NCBI RefSeq assembly: GCF_003585765.1
Contig: NZ_CP021235.1
Location: 1-64,000 of the forward strand
Direction: 5' to 3'
DNA length: 64,000 bases
DNA from: Pontibacter actiniarum
GTDB taxonomy: Bacteria > Bacteroidota > Bacteroidia > Cytophagales > Hymenobacteraceae
The translations under genes and the position numbers were made by a program. The notes below the pieces were generated by a model. It was not told the origin of the DNA and searched no databases. It saw only the letters and a list, made by a program, of their open reading frames with translations. Positions 30,270 through 37,637 of this stretch are shown here, one piece after another. Each line of letters starts with the position of its first letter. The first letter of the stretch is position 1.

Positions 30270-32201
30270 ATGAAACCCGCCAACGCCATACAAGAGCGCG
30301 TACTGGAGTTCCTGAAACAGTACCCGCCGTTTAACCTGATAGCACAGGATGAACTCCGGCAACTGGCGGGGCAGGTGCGGGTGCAGTACCTGGAGCCGGA
30401 GCAGGTGCTGTTTAAGCAGGGCGACACACCGCATGAGGTGTTTTATGTGGTGCGGCAGGGTTCGGTAAGGCTGGAGCAGGGGCCTGAGGATGAGAGGCGC
30501 CTGGTGGATGTATGCGACGAGGGAGATGTGTTTGGGGCCCGTGCCCTGATCGCTAAGAAAGACTATTCCTCCAGGGCCACGGCTGCTGAAGAAGCGCTGG
30601 TGTACGGCATTCCGACGGCGCTGTTCGAGCCTATCCTGTACCATAACCCGGAGGTGGCTTTATACTTTGCCGCCGGTTTTGCCGCCGGGTCGCCGGTGCA
30701 GCAGGGCAGTATGCAGGAGACCAACAAAGCCCGCCGCGGGCTGAGCACCTACACCCCGCAGCAGCCGCTGCACCTGGAGGATGTGCTGACGCTGGACACC
30801 GACCGCAACAAAGTAACCTGCACCGGCCAGACCTCCATTCGGCTGGCGGCCCAGATCATGAGCGATAAAGACTCCAGCTTTATACTTGTTGTGGATGAGC
30901 AGGAGCGCCCTGTCGGCATCCTGACCGACACGGACCTGCGAAGGCGCGTAGTGGCGGGCCACCTGAGCATCGACGATGCCGTGACGGAGGTAATGTCGGC
31001 ACCGGTAGTGACCATACACCCCAACCCGCACATGGCGGAGGCTCTGCTGCTAATGATGCGCCACCGTATAAAGCACCTTTGCGTGACAGCAGACGGCTCC
31101 GGTGAATCACCTGTGGAGGGAGTTCTGACAGAGCACCACCTGCTGCTTGCCCAGGGCAACAACCCGGCAGTGCTGGTGCAGGAAATCCGGGAGACGCAAA
31201 GCATCGGCAACTTGCCAGCCATCCGCAACCAGGCCGAGGAGCTGCTGCAGAAGTACCTGGAGCAGGAGGTGAGCATCGCTTTCATCGCCAACATTATAAC
31301 AGAGATAAACGATGCGCTGGTGGTACGGGCACTGCGGCACGCCGAAAGTGTACTTGGCGAACCGCCTTTGCGCTACTGCTGGCTCTCCATCGGCAGCGAG
31401 GGGCGCGAGGAGCAGCTGTTGCGTACCGACCAGGACAACGCCCTGGTGTTTGAGGATGCCCATGCGGCACAGGAGAAGGAGGCGCAGGCGTACTTTCTGG
31501 AGCTGGCCGCGCAGGTAAACCAGGTGCTGGAGTCCTGCGGCTTTGAGAGGTGCCCGGCTAACATGATGGCAAGTAACCCTTTGTGGTGCCAGCCGCTGCA
31601 CACCTGGGTGCACTACTTCTACAAATGGATACACCAGCCTACCGAGGAGGCGCTCCTGAACGCCAGTATCTTCTTCGACTACCGCCCAGTTTACGGGGAC
31701 TTTAGCCTGGCAGAGAAGCTGACAAACTATGTTTACGAGCACATACAGCAGGAGCGGATATTCTTGCCTTACCTGGCCAAGCATGCTCTGCAGAGCCCGC
31801 CTCCGCTCAGCTTTTTCCGGAGCTTTATTGTGGAGCGGGGAGGGGAGCACAAAGACCAGTTCGATATAAAGCTGCGCGCCATGGCCCCGCTTGTAGATGC
31901 CGCCCGTGTGCTGACGCTGGATAACCGCGTGGCCGGCGAAAACAATACCTTTAAGCGCTTTGCCAGGCTGGCAGCACTGGAGCCACAAAACGCCGGCCTT
32001 TACCAGGAGGCCGCCATGGCCTACGAGATTATGATGCGCCACCGGGCCCTTAGCGGTTTGCGCAACCACAACTCCGGGCGCTACATCAACCCGGAGCAGC
32101 TCAACAAGCTGGAGCGGCAAACGCTGCGCAATACCTTTAAGCCCATTAGCGATGTGCAGGAGTTGCTGCAGGTGCGCTTCCAGTTAAATTACCTGGGCTG
32201 A
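30270..32201 (+). CDS. cNMP-binding/CBS/DUF294 nucleotidyltransferase-like protein
   Basis: The protein has 643 residues in four parts: an N-terminal cyclic-nucleotide-binding domain (about 15-125, YLEPEQVLFKQGDTPHEVFY), a CBS pair (about 170-290, ILTDTDLRRRVV), a DUF294 nucleotidyltransferase-like domain (GSEGREEQLLRTDQDNALVF, the G-S...D-x-D pattern), and the helical DUF294 C-terminal domain. It overlaps the exonuclease gene by one base (TGATG). The pair DUF294 + DnaQ-type exonuclease often accompanies ActP/Acs genes in proteobacteria; the exact biochemical role is not established. Confidence 0.9.
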   Translation: MKPANAIQERVLEFLKQYPPFNLIAQDELRQLAGQVRVQYLEPEQVLFKQGDTPHEVFYVVRQGSVRLEQGPEDERRLVDVCDEGDVFGARALIAKKDYSSRATAAEEALVYGIPTALFEPILYHNPEVALYFAAGFAAGSPVQQGSMQETNKARRGLSTYTPQQPLHLEDVLTLDTDRNKVTCTGQTSIRLAAQIMSDKDSSFILVVDEQERPVGILTDTDLRRRVVAGHLSIDDAVTEVMSAPVVTIHPNPHMAEALLLMMRHRIKHLCVTADGSGESPVEGVLTEHHLLLAQGNNPAVLVQEIRETQSIGNLPAIRNQAEELLQKYLEQEVSIAFIANIITEINDALVVRALRHAESVLGEPPLRYCWLSIGSEGREEQLLRTDQDNALVFEDAHAAQEKEAQAYFLELAAQVNQVLESCGFERCPANMMASNPLWCQPLHTWVHYFYKWIHQPTEEALLNASIFFDYRPVYGDFSLAEKLTNYVYEHIQQERIFLPYLAKHALQSPPPLSFFRSFIVERGGEHKDQFDIKLRAMAPLVDAARVLTLDNRVAGENNTFKRFARLAALEPQNAGLYQEAAMAYEIMMRHRALSGLRNHNSGRYINPEQLNKLERQTLRNTFKPISDVQELLQVRFQLNYLG

Positions 32202-32899
32202 TGCGCGGCTGGCTGAAAGAACTGCTGTCGGGTAAGCCGCAGGCAAGCCCTGATGATCCTCCCTTCTGGAAAGACTACATCCAGCGCATACATAACCAGG
32301 GCGCTGCAGATACCTCCCTGAGCGAGGCGGACTTTGTCGTTTTTGATACCGAGACAACGGGTTTGGATGTAAAGGCGGACAAGGTGCTGTCGGTGGGGGC
32401 TGTGAGGGTGTGTAAGGGGCAGGTGCTGGTACAGGATAGCTTTGAGTTTGTGGTGCGGCAGGAGGTGGCAGCAGGAAACAAAAGCGCAGAAGTGCACGGC
32501 CTGCTGCGGCAGGAGGTAGGGCAGGGGGTGCCGGAGCCGGAGGTGCTGATGCTTTTCCTTTCCTTCGTGGGCAGCGCCCCTTTGGTTGGCCATCATGTGG
32601 CTTTTGATGTTGAGATGATCAACGGCATGATCCGGCGCTGTGGCATCAACGGCAAGCTGCACAACCCCACCGTAGACACCGCCGAACTGGCCAAACGGCT
32701 GGAGCGCCGCCAGCACTCCCCCGACAGCTACCGGCGCTCCGACTACACATTAGACTCGCTCATCCGCAAGTATAACCTGCCCACCGAATCCCGCCACACC
32801 GCCTCCGGCGACGCCTTTATCACGGCCATACTGCTGCTGAAGCTGCTAGCGCAGGCAAAGCAGCGTGGGATTAGCAAGGTGGGGGAGCTGGTGCGGTAG
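32201..32899 (+). CDS. DnaQ-like 3'-5' exonuclease
   Basis: This is a 232-residue DEDDh exonuclease. Exo I is VVFDTETTGLD (Asp and Glu metal ligands), Exo II is HHVAFDVEMIN, and Exo III is HTASGDAFITA (catalytic His, final Asp). An N-terminal tail of about 40 residues precedes the fold. The family includes the epsilon proofreading subunit, RNase T and standalone nucleases. Its translational coupling to the DUF294 protein suggests it works in the acetate/second-messenger module rather than as the replication subunit. Confidence 0.88.
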   Translation: MRGWLKELLSGKPQASPDDPPFWKDYIQRIHNQGAADTSLSEADFVVFDTETTGLDVKADKVLSVGAVRVCKGQVLVQDSFEFVVRQEVAAGNKSAEVHGLLRQEVGQGVPEPEVLMLFLSFVGSAPLVGHHVAFDVEMINGMIRRCGINGKLHNPTVDTAELAKRLERRQHSPDSYRRSDYTLDSLIRKYNLPTESRHTASGDAFITAILLLKLLAQAKQRGISKVGELVR

Positions 32900-32970
32900 G
32901 TGGCAGGTTGCCTGGCTCGGCTTATTTGTAGATTTGGCAGATAAGCCGAATAGCTATTCCGTTTATCTGT

Positions 32971-32978
32971 TATATTTG
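32971..32978 (+). promoter_or_regulatory. Possible -7 promoter box before the island lipoprotein
   Basis: TATATTTG matches TAnnTTTG, 86 bp before the next ATG and just before the first GTTAGC motif. Nearby are the hairpin CGGCTTAT/ATAAGCCG (32918-32948) and the palindrome GAATAGCTATTC (32948-32959). Confidence 0.35.
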
Positions 32979-33063
32979 GAGTATAGCAGGAATAGGGTTC
33001 CTGTTAGCAATTAGTTGGCGATGATTGTAACTACTAATTTAACCACAACGCAAAAACAATAGC

Positions 33064-33564
33064 ATGAGGAAGTTCAGAGCGATTATGGGCGCTTTTGTTT
33101 TTGGTACTATTTGTATTGGTTGTGAGGGAAAAGGAGAAGGTACTTCTTCGGAGAAAACAGTAGGTGGAACTGAGGCTATTGAGCAAAGCATCCAGACTTG
33201 TGTTAGTGATATAGGAGTAGAACTTGTTCCAGATGATATTGAGGCACCTGATGCTCTTGTTGTTTCTTTTACCAGCACAGATGAAACAGTAAATCAGATG
33301 CTGGAGCAAGGCAACACTGTTACGCTAATAGTATGGAAGGACACTTCAACTGTCATCGAAGATTCCGCAGTGTATACATCAAGAATAGCCAAAATCAGGA
33401 AAGTAAAGGACAGTGAGTTTCAGATATTCTATCCTGGTATGGGATTCACAGACTTAGGCACAAATGAGCTATCGGTGATTTCAAATGAAGAACTGAGGAT
33501 AAACCCCCAAATAACAATCAAAACAAGGGCAGGAAGAGAATGGACTTTCCGCTCCTGCCAATAA
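33064..33564 (+). CDS. Putative lipoprotein, unknown function
   Basis: The protein has 166 residues with a short signal and lipobox ending at Cys21 (AFVFGTICIGC). The rest is acidic with no recognised domain. The coding sequence is clearly AT-richer than the genes to its left (many ATA, AAA, TTT codons), marking the start of a probably acquired segment. A GTTAGC motif is 56 bp upstream and another follows the gene. Confidence 0.65.
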   Translation: MRKFRAIMGAFVFGTICIGCEGKGEGTSSEKTVGGTEAIEQSIQTCVSDIGVELVPDDIEAPDALVVSFTSTDETVNQMLEQGNTVTLIVWKDTSTVIEDSAVYTSRIAKIRKVKDSEFQIFYPGMGFTDLGTNELSVISNEELRINPQITIKTRAGREWTFRSCQ

Positions 33565-33677
33565 AGAAGCTTAACTAGAAGAAAACAACCTTCGCCAATA
33601 AAGTATAGCAGTACTGCTTCGGCTACGCCTCGCAATCTGCTATACCAAGTCCGTTAGCAGAAAGAAATATTAAAAGA

Positions 33678-34238
33678 ATGGATTTCAATATTATTGAATA
33701 TTTAAAGAGAGGTACTCCAAAGCAACAAGAAGCATATAATGTGCTTACTCAATATTCAATAATGGAGTATCTGCAACCTTATTCTCCCATATTGGCAGGG
33801 ACAATTCCTATAGATATTGACATAGAAAACAGTGATTTGGACATTATTTGTTACTGGGAACATGTTGATCAATTCAAGGTTAATTTGCTCAAATATTTCT
33901 CCAGTTATAAAGACTTTCAGTTAGTTGATAAAATGGTTCAAGATCAACGTACCGTAATTGCTAATTTTATAGTTGAAAGCTTTGATATTGAAATATTTGG
34001 GCAGAATACACCTTCGCAAGAGCAGTATGCTTACAGACACATGGTAGTAGAGTACTATCTTCTACTGTCCAAGGGAAATCAGTTCAGGCAAACCATTAGG
34101 GAACTTAAGGAGCAGGGATATAAAACAGAACCAGCTTTTGCTCATGCTCTAGGATGGAAGGGAGATCCATATCTTGAACTTTTAAAATATGAAGAAAAAT
34201 TACAAACCCATCTGCCAACAATAGCTAAAAAGCTTTAA
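33678..34238 (+). CDS. DUF4269-family protein, nucleotidyltransferase-like
   Basis: The protein has 186 residues. The stretch AGTIPIDIDIENSDLDIICY resembles the active-site strand of minimal nucleotidyltransferases, and the C-terminal half (QYAYRHMVVEYYLLL ... HALGWKGDPYLELLKYE) is characteristic of DUF4269. Substrate and function are unknown. It is AT-rich, single, starts 20 bp after one GTTAGC motif and ends just before the next, and its 3' end forms part of a hairpin (CTAAAAAGC / GCTTTTTAG, 34225-34250). This is typical of cassette-borne genes. Confidence 0.78.
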   Translation: MDFNIIEYLKRGTPKQQEAYNVLTQYSIMEYLQPYSPILAGTIPIDIDIENSDLDIICYWEHVDQFKVNLLKYFSSYKDFQLVDKMVQDQRTVIANFIVESFDIEIFGQNTPSQEQYAYRHMVVEYYLLLSKGNQFRQTIRELKEQGYKTEPAFAHALGWKGDPYLELLKYEEKLQTHLPTIAKKL

Positions 34239-34407
34239 ACCGCTTTTTAGCCAAACGTTAGCTGCAACCCAGGCGAAAATCTTCAATAGAATCAAAAGCT
34301 GAAAATAATTTTAAGATTGATTTCTATTGCATACTTTTACTTATAGCGATAGGCTATTTTATTAAAACAAGCACCATTGGACTACCACGGTTTTCAATAA
34401 TCCCTCT

Positions 34408-35481
34408 CTAATTGATTTTTATTTTGTTGATAGTAAATACCATATCGGAAATATCTTCACCCACCTCATTAATTCTGGAATTAGTGAAATATAGGTGTCC
34501 TTCATAAATACTAAAGGTGTCTGCCCATTTCACTTTTTCTCCTTGAACCAAGGTTTTCAGTTTTCCTTCCGGAGTAAGGTAGTCAATCCTATTATGTTCC
34601 AAATCCGCCAGATATAGATTTTGATGTTTGTCGAAAATCATCCCATCCGGAGCCCCCGTTTCGGCTTCTATTTTTACATTGGCTTCTATTTCGGCTTCCG
34701 TTCCGTTAAGCAAGACAGCCGTAGAAACAGAATACAATGTATAACCGGTTAAACTATGAAAGAACAAACGGTTGCTTTTGGGATTTAATGCAATGCCGTC
34801 AGAATGTACCGGTTTACCACCCCATTTTTTCCCATCGAAAGTTAAATAATCGGTTTCGGCTCTGGTTGAAAAGTGGTTGTCAAGAACGCGTCTGCTTTTT
34901 CTCGTAGAAAGATCATAGATAACCAAGGCACCCTCATTGGAATCGGTAAAGTAGATGGCGTTATTTTTTAAATCTACACGCAAATCATTGATGTAAGAGT
35001 TTGGCTTGTAGCTCCCTTCAGAAAGAATCAAAATGTCTTCCAAACTGTTATTCTTGAGATTGAAAACATAAACCCTTGGAGCATCTACTGTACCTTCCCA
35101 AATAGGATTCCGGGTATCCAGCACATAAAGTTTTTTGGCAAATGCCACAACAGACTGAACGCCTATAAAAACGGAATCGGAAACCGCCTGTTCAATATTC
35201 CAACTGTTCCAGTTCTTGTTGGGGTAAGGCTGCAAATTCCCTTCTTTGGAAATTTCAACCACTGAATTTTCCACCGTATTCCGCCACCTGGGAAAATTGA
35301 CGAAAATCCTGCCCTTATCACTAACCGATACACCAGTGACCTGTTGACCCTTAAACTCTGCAACATTCGTTACTTCTGTCTGCTTGGATTTAGGCGAATG
35401 GAAGCAGGAATATATGCCAAAGAATAAAAACGGTAATAATATTAAATGAAAAAGCAGTTTTTTGATTAAGGTTCTAATCAT
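34408..35481 (-). CDS. Yellow/MRJP-like lipoprotein (L-dopachrome tautomerase-related)
   Basis: The protein has 357 residues with a lipoprotein signal (LILLPFLFFGIYSC, Cys26). It shows beta-propeller pattern and the family blocks VYVFNLKNNSLEDIL, YINDLRVDLKNNAIYFTDS, SDGIALNPKSNRLFFHSL and GAPDGMIFDKHQNLYLADL, which fit the Major Royal Jelly/Yellow family. Bacterial members are uncharacterised; an envelope location is expected. It lies 30 bp downstream of the VOC gene on the same strand, likely an operon, with a divergent HxlR regulator beyond. Confidence 0.82.
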   Translation of the reverse strand: MIRTLIKKLLFHLILLPFLFFGIYSCFHSPKSKQTEVTNVAEFKGQQVTGVSVSDKGRIFVNFPRWRNTVENSVVEISKEGNLQPYPNKNWNSWNIEQAVSDSVFIGVQSVVAFAKKLYVLDTRNPIWEGTVDAPRVYVFNLKNNSLEDILILSEGSYKPNSYINDLRVDLKNNAIYFTDSNEGALVIYDLSTRKSRRVLDNHFSTRAETDYLTFDGKKWGGKPVHSDGIALNPKSNRLFFHSLTGYTLYSVSTAVLLNGTEAEIEANVKIEAETGAPDGMIFDKHQNLYLADLEHNRIDYLTPEGKLKTLVQGEKVKWADTFSIYEGHLYFTNSRINEVGEDISDMVFTINKIKIN

Positions 35482-35511
35482 AACATACTGTTTTAAAATC
35501 TCACATTAAAG

Positions 35512-36021
35512 TTATTTAGTGTATGCGCCTGAAGAATACGTCAGTTCATAACTGTGCGTGTAGATTTCAAAAACAATTCCGAATGGGTCTTCTACATAAC
35601 ACATTTTGTAAGGTTTGTCATCTGGATAATACTCCCTGACAGGCATTCTTTGCTTACCCCCGTACAACAGAATTTTTTCTATCAGTTCCTCTATATTTGG
35701 GTCTTGTATGCAAAAATGAAAGAGTCCGGTATTGAATGGGTTAAATTCAGGAGCTTCTTTAATTCCGTTGGGAAAAGAAAACAGTTCAATTCCTATTCCG
35801 TCTGAGGTTGCGAGGTGTGCAATTTCAAATTGTTCCCAACCGTTGCCAAATACATCAATACACATCTGCCCGATGGCGGTGTCTGTTTCTTTTTTGACAA
35901 TGGATGGTTCCATTATAACATACCAGCCCATCACTTCAGAATAGAATTTTACAGCCTCGTGCAAATCAGGAACGGTAATCCCGATATGGGAAAATGTTTT
36001 AGGATACGGTCTCAAATTCAT
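35512..36021 (-). CDS. VOC-superfamily (glyoxalase/dioxygenase-fold) protein
   Basis: The protein has 169 residues with two betaalphabetabetabeta units. Likely metal ligands are H12 (SHIGITVPD), a Glu in GIGIELFSF, a His in GLFHFCIQD and a Glu in GIVFEIYTHS. This suits a glyoxalase-, dioxygenase- or resistance-type enzyme on a small electrophile or phenol; the substrate is unknown. It is first in a two-gene leftward operon and diverges from the HxlR gene across a 111-bp control region. Confidence 0.82.
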   Translation of the reverse strand: MNLRPYPKTFSHIGITVPDLHEAVKFYSEVMGWYVIMEPSIVKKETDTAIGQMCIDVFGNGWEQFEIAHLATSDGIGIELFSFPNGIKEAPEFNPFNTGLFHFCIQDPNIEELIEKILLYGGKQRMPVREYYPDDKPYKMCYVEDPFGIVFEIYTHSYELTYSSGAYTK

Positions 36022-36132
36022 AACAATCTATTTTAGTCCTGCAAAAAAAGTGCATATTAGCTAATTAAACGAGAACTAACCAAAAAGTAATATAGTTACC
36101 AAAAAGAGTATTTTGTTGATAATAAGTAATTT

Positions 36133-36453
36133 ATGGATGAAATAAAAAATAGAATTATATGTCCGCTCGACTTTGCGATGAAACTTATTGGTACTAAATG
36201 GAAACCTTTGGTGTTATTCCATTTGCTGGAAGGTCCTGTGCGGTCAGGTGTATTGCAAAAGCACCTTCCGGATATTTCCAACAAAATGTTTACCCAAACT
36301 ATAAGGGAATTGGAAAAAGACAATTTAGTTGAAAGAATTGTATATCCAGTCGTTCCCCCCAAGGTGGAATACAAGTTAACCAAGAAAGGATATTCACTGG
36401 AAAATATATTAAAAAGTCTGGATGCGTGGGGGCTTGAAATGATGAAGACATAA
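36133..36453 (+). CDS. HxlR-family transcriptional regulator
   Basis: The 106-residue winged-helix protein has the family start CPLDFAMKLIGTKWKPLVLFHL and the recognition region DISNKMFTQTIRELEKDNLV. HxlR regulators often sense aldehydes, quinones or oxidants through a Cys near the N-terminus; here Cys11 is in that position. It most likely controls the divergent VOC/Yellow-like operon. Confidence 0.9.
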   Translation: MDEIKNRIICPLDFAMKLIGTKWKPLVLFHLLEGPVRSGVLQKHLPDISNKMFTQTIRELEKDNLVERIVYPVVPPKVEYKLTKKGYSLENILKSLDAWGLEMMKT

Positions 36454-36557
36454 AGAAAGAGTTCTTGGATAAAGGCATACTTAACGTATAGGCCGAAAAA
36501 GTAAAAAACGAATGAAAATAATAAAAGAAACATTGAGCTAACTACAAAAGGGCAGCA

Positions 36558-36686
36558 GCTAACATTGTAAAAGCATAATGCGGGCTGAATCGCTAAATTT
36601 CAGTATTTTGGCATCTGTCAAAGTTTAGTGCTAGTGGGTAGTGAATCACTCCGAAACCCGCACTACGCTTATACTTGACCGTTAGC
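36558..36686. other. attC-like imperfect palindrome
   Basis: GCTAAC (36558-36563) is matched by GTTAGC (36681-36686). Inside, AAGCATAATGCGGG (36571-36584) pairs with CCCGCACTACGCTT (36657-36670) at 12 of 14 positions; the two exceptions become G-T wobble pairs on the bottom strand, the strand integrases act on. Total size 129 nt with a 72-nt central part, within the attC range. The outer boxes depart from the clinical RYYYAAC/GTTRRRY consensus at single positions. Confidence 0.55.
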
Positions 36687-36695
36687 GGTAATATA

Positions 36696-36908
36696 ATGAA
36701 GAGAAGGAAACATACACCAATAGGGCTAAACGGCCTGTTTATGCTGGTACTTACGGTGTGCCTTATGGATCTATTTTCTTCATTTAAAATAAAGAGCCAG
36801 GCTGTCAAGTCGTTTTCATATGTTGGGCTGCTTGTTCTTTTGCCGGTTTTGCTTGTGTGGCCAAAGGTAAGCAAAGAGGTTAACGAAGCGGGTTTCTGGT
36901 CCTCTTGA
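36696..36908 (+). CDS. Small two-helix membrane protein
   Basis: The protein has 70 residues from the ATG at 36696, starting ten bases after the attC-like GTTAGC box. It has a basic N-terminus (MKRRKHTP) and two hydrophobic helices (LNGLFMLVLTVCLMDLF and VGLLVLLPVLLVWP). No family recognised. A TTG-initiated extension would lie inside the attC-like box and is unlikely. Its position is what a promoterless cassette gene would have. Confidence 0.55.
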   Translation: MKRRKHTPIGLNGLFMLVLTVCLMDLFSSFKIKSQAVKSFSYVGLLVLLPVLLVWPKVSKEVNEAGFWSS

Positions 36909-37073: not shown

Positions 37074-37637
37074 ATGATCGACGAAACCCATAATCCCTGG
37101 ACCACCCTCTCCAGCAAGTCAGTTTACCAGAACCCCTGGATAAAAGTGCGTGAAGACCAGGTGCTGAACCCCAGCGGCGGCGAAGGCATCTACGGGGTAG
37201 TGAGCATGAAGAACAAGGCCATTGGCATCATTCCGATTGATGAGGAGGGATATACGTACCTCATCGGCCAATACCGCTACCCGCTCAACGAGTACAGCTG
37301 GGAAATACCGATGGGCGGCGGCCTGCTGGAGAACGACATTCTGGAGTCGGCGAAGCGGGAGTTGCAGGAGGAAACAGGCTTTACAGCCGCCAAATGGGAA
37401 AACATATGCCGCCTGCACACATCCAACTCCGTAACCGATGAAGAAGGATTTGTTTTCCTGGCCCAGGAACTAACCGCCGGCGAAACCGCTTTTGAAGAGA
37501 CTGAGCAACTGCACATCAGGAAAGTGCCGTTTAAAGAGGCAGTGCGCATGGCCATGAACAATGAAATTACCGATGCCATTAGTGTGGCCGGTATTCTGAA
37601 AGCAGCCTTTCTGCTGCAGGAGCAGGGCAAACTGTAG
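37074..37637 (+). CDS. NUDIX hydrolase (ADP-ribose pyrophosphatase-like)
   Basis: The 187-residue protein hydrolyses a nucleoside diphosphate linked to another group. The Nudix box runs GGGLLENDILESAKRELQEE TGF, with the metal-binding core RELQEETGF intact; the first Glu of the classic box is Asn here. The N-terminal strand region (VREDQVLNPSGGEGIYGVV) and the aromatic-rich QYRYPLNEYSWEIPMGGG before the box are typical of ADP-ribose pyrophosphatases. Single gene, housekeeping-like codon use returns here after the AT-rich island. Confidence 0.88.
   Translation: MIDETHNPWTTLSSKSVYQNPWIKVREDQVLNPSGGEGIYGVVSMKNKAIGIIPIDEEGYTYLIGQYRYPLNEYSWEIPMGGGLLENDILESAKRELQEETGFTAAKWENICRLHTSNSVTDEEGFVFLAQELTAGETAFEETEQLHIRKVPFKEAVRMAMNNEITDAISVAGILKAAFLLQEQGKL

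Follow-up and report, generated by a model that had tools for sequence, protein, structure and literature searches.

An AT-rich island in the genome of Pontibacter actiniarum is, to judge from its sequence and with a probability of roughly 0.8, a satellite cassette cluster, made up of an attI-like site, three cassettes and a probable truncated fourth, whose cassettes were most likely inserted by a 548-aa tyrosine recombinase. The island lies in the 64,000-nucleotide stretch of DNA analysed here (hereafter the window), part of the main contig of a 4.97-Mb genome of two contigs, and looks like a satellite of a new integron variant. In the proposed mechanism, circular cassettes would enter by a crossover that falls between the G and the TT of GTT, the recombinase encoded 2.2 Mb away being the most likely catalyst. 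The cluster probably formed when cassettes were placed, in trans, into an attI-like site that stood on its own.

Cassettes of the AT-rich island

A first-pass annotation of this DNA had described the island as resembling a run of integron-type cassettes bounded by four copies of GTTAGC. Its base composition was as described, 37–39% GC at 33–37 kb against 51–58% on either side, and all four copies (33003, 33653, 34257 and 36681) were found on the plus strand. GTTAGC alone was rejected as evidence, its 26 copies in the 64-kb window being fewer than the 36.4 expected and thus no enrichment; the whole attC-like site, unlike the bare hexamer, exceeded chance, as judged by matches to R1, a covariance model built from 19 gaps of the genome's main cassette array without any window sequence. 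R1 matched the window at 33591–33661, 34211–34265 and 36555–36689, the third match being weak, and past 36689 it found nothing above 3.7 bits. An Rfam scan of the window gave no match. The features of the locus are as follows.

32201–32899, plus strand: exonuclease gene, the left flank, kept in relatives
32935–33019, plus strand: attI-like docking site (R2 matches, see below), a pair of neighbouring inverted repeats with ...TTAGTTGGC at the end
33015–33653, plus strand: cassette 1, supported by homology to a copy in relative G029; start against own attC R'', 5/5
33064–33564, plus strand: cassette 1 ORF, 166 aa, lipoprotein-like by eye, without a Pfam match
33591–33661, plus strand: attC-like site 1, with R'' TCGCCAAT, stem GTATAGCAG/CTGCTATAC and R' GTTAGCAG (R1 38.6 bits, E 2e-7)
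33654–34257, plus strand: cassette 2; start against own attC R'', 4/5; gene near attC-like sites in G030 and G068
33678–34238, plus strand: DUF4269 protein, 186 aa (PF14091, E 3e-58)
34211–34265, plus strand: attC-like site 2, overlapping the end of the DUF4269 ORF (R1 27.7 bits, E 1e-4); stem covaries between species copies
34258–36681, plus strand: cassette 3, 2.4 kb, unusually long, genes on both strands; start against own R'', 5/5 (9/9 over the whole box)
34408–35481, minus strand: MRJP/Yellow-like beta-propeller protein, 357 aa (PF03022, E 6e-18)
35512–36021, minus strand: VOC/glyoxalase protein, 169 aa (PF00903, E 1e-14)
36133–36453, plus strand: HxlR-type regulator, 106 aa (PF01638, E 1e-29)
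36555–36689, plus strand: attC-like site 3, long form, 135 nt (R1 18.0 bits, E 0.05, weak alone)
36682–36908, plus strand: probable fourth cassette without an attC of its own, with a 70-aa ORF at 36696–36908; starts like array cassettes
37074–37637, plus strand: NUDIX gene, the right flank, kept in relatives

The gene content agreed with the earlier description (a 166-aa lipoprotein-like protein, DUF4269, MRJP/Yellow-like, VOC/glyoxalase and HxlR proteins and a 70-aa ORF), and the fourth unit is probably a truncated cassette. Counted against the satellite-cluster reading are the weakness of site 3, the modest scores of the attI-like matches and the length and mixed gene orientation of cassette 3.

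A cassette would move as a circle opened between the G and the TT of GTT, so that the bases at its start would once have been joined in a single site to the R'' box of the attC it carries. This rule was examined on 105 sites from ten arrays or array pieces by comparing R' of each site with R'' of the next at five variable positions. The 95 neighbour pairs from the genus matched on average at 4.6 of 5 positions, 72 of them perfectly, against 2.1 of 5 for the two halves of one site and 1.93 of 5 for random pairs, and none of 10 000 draws scored as high. The three links in the window scored 5/5, 4/5 and 5/5, given a left edge of GTTGGCGA at 33014, and the R'' box of site 3, GCAGCTAAC, is the exact complement of the unit start GTTAGCTGC at 34257. 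With GTTAGC at 33003 as left edge the first link fails. In the alignment of cassette 1 with its G029 copy, homology starts at AGTTGGCG (window position 33013) and ends at the GTT of the attC. A boundary at 33003 was therefore rejected, since homology starts at 33013 and 33014, not 33003, complements the R'' of the cassette 1 attC; the GTTAGC copy at 33003 falls within the attI-like site. Together, the R'/R'' links and the start of the cassette 1 alignment define the cassettes as 33015–33653, 33654–34257 and 34258–36681. Of the four proposed boundaries, those at 33653, 34257 and 36681 thus stand, and on the left the correct edge is the GTTGGC at position 33014, with a crossover that would fall between G33014 and T33015.

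Comparison with relatives, which had been suggested as a check on the island, showed that it is not conserved. In 18 relatives the exonuclease and NUDIX flanks were both kept, 0.4–4.1 kb apart, and none of these carried the window's cassette genes at this locus. Other attC-bearing DNA was present there instead in four of the relatives, with three sites in G004 and one each in G003, G011 and G012, so cassettes have been gained or lost between relatives, as seen in this comparison of species. The DUF4269 gene of cassette 2 was found at another locus between two attC-like sites in G030 and beside one attC-like site in G068, and a copy of cassette 1 with its attC-like site was found in G029. The VOC/HxlR pair of cassette 3 occurs in other members of the genus (L070–L072), and sites 73–77% similar to attC-like site 3 are present in G014, G019 and G034. 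The earlier reading of integron-type cassettes lacking a local integrase thereby gains support from the attC-like sites, from the circular-cassette rule, from the occurrence of cassettes 1 and 2 at other loci in sister species and from the lack of conservation of the island here.

attC-like and attI-like sites of the genus

The gaps of the main array have a common plan, in which a GCYAAC-type box is separated by a short spacer from a stem, its loop often like TTCGGCTACGCC, and a further spacer leads to a GTTRGC-type box. In the R1 alignment, 76.8% of cells were paired, compared with 59.1% after shuffling and 24–35% when the structure was slid, and the covariation score of the stem was 0.457 against 0.160 for shuffled alignments. 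The window sites have the layout of attC, short R boxes (RYYYAAC and GTTRRRY-like) round a variable hairpin, with site 3 a weak case. The genome contains 40 R1 matches, and its main array stands directly behind the gene for the 548-aa recombinase; a strict GCTAAC..CGTTAGC pattern occurs at only five places in the genome. R1 sites were present in all 21 genomes of the genus that were tested and in none of 14 genomes from other genera. Folding favoured the bottom strand in 71 of the 73 sites compared, with a mean advantage of 2.8 kcal/mol, as is expected of attC; such a bias would fit a folded bottom-strand substrate but does not reveal which strand recombines.

Downstream of the integrase genes of the genus, and running up to the first cassette, is a conserved sequence that usually has the form CACATAGTGCAGATA-(inverted repeat)-TAGTT, the conserved site lying about 150 bp past the integrase stop throughout the genus. 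At the level of the genome, a candidate attI thus stands between integrase gene and first cassette, as in a complete integron. From 19 such integrase-proximal sites only, we derived a second model, R2, which uses sequence only because RNAalifold predicted no base pairing in the alignment of these sites. R2 matched the window at 32937–32967 (18.3 bits) and 32983–33019 (17.5 bits), both modest scores. Across the genome it matched the main attI and, a short way before almost every dispersed attC cluster (that of the window among them), a further site. Nearly every dispersed cluster has an attI-like start and no integrase gene; cluster 2326421–2329689 had no R2 match. A match at 3992848 that at first seemed an orphan has attC-like sites behind it, and one at 2455337 has a weak attC-like site behind it. 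Similar attI-like elements head clusters in relatives. Arrays of attC-like sites with attI-like sites were also seen at L208, L209 and L211 in two genomes (G006 and G032) without a full-length integrase match.

The window cluster could alternatively be the remnant of a complete integron whose local integrase gene was deleted. An integrase relic does exist at one small cluster of the same genome, where 22 aa (aa 72–93, 73% identity; L094:1718–1783, near C1:913.7 kb) are encoded about 140 bp before the attI-like site, which counts against filling in trans as the sole route, and relatives carry several integrase copies and fragments. No such relic was found, however, at the window locus or at the genome's other clusters, and in four species (that of the window, G004, G003 and G011) the attI-like site holds a common position, immediately past the exonuclease stop, where the cassettes that follow differ and no integrase is present. 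This arrangement speaks for a fixed docking site that received its cassettes in trans, and we regard loss of a local integrase as rather unlikely.

The candidate integrase

The recombinase that would have filled the satellite cluster is encoded at C1:2252497–2254143. Behind it come an attI-like site and an array with 22 attC-like sites, where small ORFs stand in a row on the same strand with short gaps between them. The array of this main integron (L009/L010, C1:2237404–2252392) includes an IS3-like transposase pair (L010:1862–2946, by eye). The nearest named relative of the recombinase is from an uncultured Pontibacter (95% over the core). The catalytic core PF00589 is present and conserved through the recombinase family. 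As the first-pass annotation had noted, there is no integrase in the window: the integron-integrase profile TIGR02249 had no match there, and its first match in the genome was at 180.7 kb. No canonical IntI above the cut-off was found in the genome, where the profile's best place was the 548-aa recombinase itself, with 194 bits against a cut-off of 265.

The recombinase shares with IntI the tyrosine recombinase core, superposition of the fold and a C-terminal SP-x-D-x-L motif (present in both by eye), but differs from it in scoring below the cut-off and in lacking the additional domain, TIGR02249 positions 179–241 (about 61) being skipped with some 19 aa in their place. The interval from KDR to the RH box was 69–77 residues in 50 of 54 relatives scanned, the motif not being found in the other four; canonical IntIs of the phylum retain the additional-domain stretch. 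By sequence, the nearest solved structures are archaeal Xer proteins, which aligned without a large insertion. The recombinase resembles archaeal XerA and XerC/D in this respect and in having no additional domain, but Xer-like genes are present separately in its own genome. The role of Xer proteins is to resolve chromosome dimers, and no function of theirs in cassette arrays is known. In a tree of the recombinases the deep order of IntI, Xer and the array-associated family was not resolved, and array-bearing members fell in several subclades.

The additional domain has been used for recognising integron integrases (PMC2426708), and IntI activity is described as requiring it (Messier and Roy, 2001, cited in PMC2426708; PMC8138268). 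In an AlphaFold2 model of a Rufibacter homologue (mean pLDDT 85), 255 residues can be superposed on IntI4 (2A3V) at 3.4 Å, and two tandem modules are seen at the N-terminus. The structural alignments cover mostly residues 210–475; that none of them matched these modules to a solved fold does not point to a new fold. The 548-aa protein itself has an N-terminal extension that consists of a tandem pair of modules, which resemble HARP in relatives. In this region the gathering score of HARP (PF07443) was reached by 2 of 27 family members (L157 and L158) and not by the recombinase of the window's own genus. That the N-terminal extension replaces the missing domain in hairpin recognition is a guess.

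Association with arrays and relation to known integrons

Most members of the genus have a full-length or fragmentary integrase. At 19 integrase loci (L018–L036, about 1.5 kb of flank), an attC-like site lay downstream on the same strand in 15. Genomes G006, G014 and G032 have attC-like sites and no full-length integrase match, which counts against the satellite-cluster reading and indicates that the link to the integrase can be lost. Other families of the order contain relatives of the recombinase (42–49% identity) with same-strand arrays downstream, built from different attC types with similar linkage (L108, L109 and L116). A scan of 54 loci gave 19 links downstream on the plus strand, against 1–3 in each other direction and 0.7 after shuffling; these came from Rufibacter (9), Bacteroidetes GWF2_41_31 (4), Algibacter (2), a Sphingobacteriales genome (2) and two Flavobacterium (1 each). 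Many relatives of the recombinase had no array within the flank examined, which also counts against that reading; since many contigs end soon after the recombinase, the number of links may be a lower bound.

Could the cassettes instead derive from a canonical IntI in another host and now be inert, the 548-aa recombinase being unrelated? Canonical IntI is frequent in the phylum's other classes (84 of 296 genomes above the cut-off, with one listed in the window's class), but the lack of any above the cut-off in this genome, the confinement of R1 sites to the genus among the genomes compared, and the position of the recombinase directly before an array and attI-like site across the genus, repeated in other genera with other site types, make such an origin improbable. 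A normal island with ordinary terminators or REP-like repeats in place of attC hairpins would fit the location of the hairpins after genes and the lack of GTTAGC enrichment, but is contradicted by the R'/R'' linkage of neighbouring sites, by the stop of cassette 1 homology at GTT and by the cassettes and attC-like sites at other loci, and can be dismissed with near certainty.

The satellite-cluster reading relates only in part to described classes. Like a CALIN as defined in IntegronFinder (PMC9024848), the window cluster combines at least two attC-like sites and their cassettes with the lack of an integrase gene nearby; unlike one, it has an attI-like start, a genus-specific attC type recognised with a home-made model and a recombinase that is not a canonical IntI. 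The earlier label of a plain CALIN holds for the missing local integrase, but the cluster also has an attI-like site, which such a group does not have to contain, and a candidate (non-canonical) integrase lies elsewhere in the genome. Sedentary chromosomal integrons such as that of Treponema (PMC3607928) likewise have an integrase, an attI and a long array of small unrelated genes, with the integrase gene reading into attI, the same way as the cassettes; the system in Pontibacter differs in its recombinase without the additional domain, its long N-terminal extension and its many satellite attI-like sites.

A review counts Bacteroidota among the integron-bearing phyla (PMC8618304), and the complete Bacteroidetes integron named with IntegronFinder 2.0 is that of Salinibacter (PMC9024848), the only one in the literature searched. 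Among the papers searched, chiefly open-access journal articles, there was no report of integrons in Pontibacter or Cytophagales or of arrays with integrases lacking the additional domain. We tentatively suggest, as a possibility at somewhat less than even odds, that Bacteroidia own a widespread integron type missed by current tools, with a recombinase that mobilises hairpin-attC cassettes, lacks the additional domain and has tandem HARP-like N-terminal modules instead, and in which one integrase serves a dozen attI-like sites dispersed over its own chromosome. If true, this would represent a second way of handling folded attC DNA, without the additional domain, could explain the apparent near absence of complete integrons in Bacteroidetes and would give access to many cassette genes that are as yet uncatalogued; satellite attI-like sites would offer a testable origin for CALINs.

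Two further arrangements of integrase genes were observed among the relatives. The 9-Mb genome of G040, from the same order, encodes several near-identical 326-aa recombinases (L110 and L111), three of which are followed, about 1.5 kb further on, by an attC-like hairpin (AGGGTTCATGG..CCATGAACCCT, GTTGGC); these are perhaps cassettes that carry their own integrase. In the two-contig genomes G002 and G020, the integrase also lies on the second contig (C2), possibly a second replicon, in a frame with one TGA.
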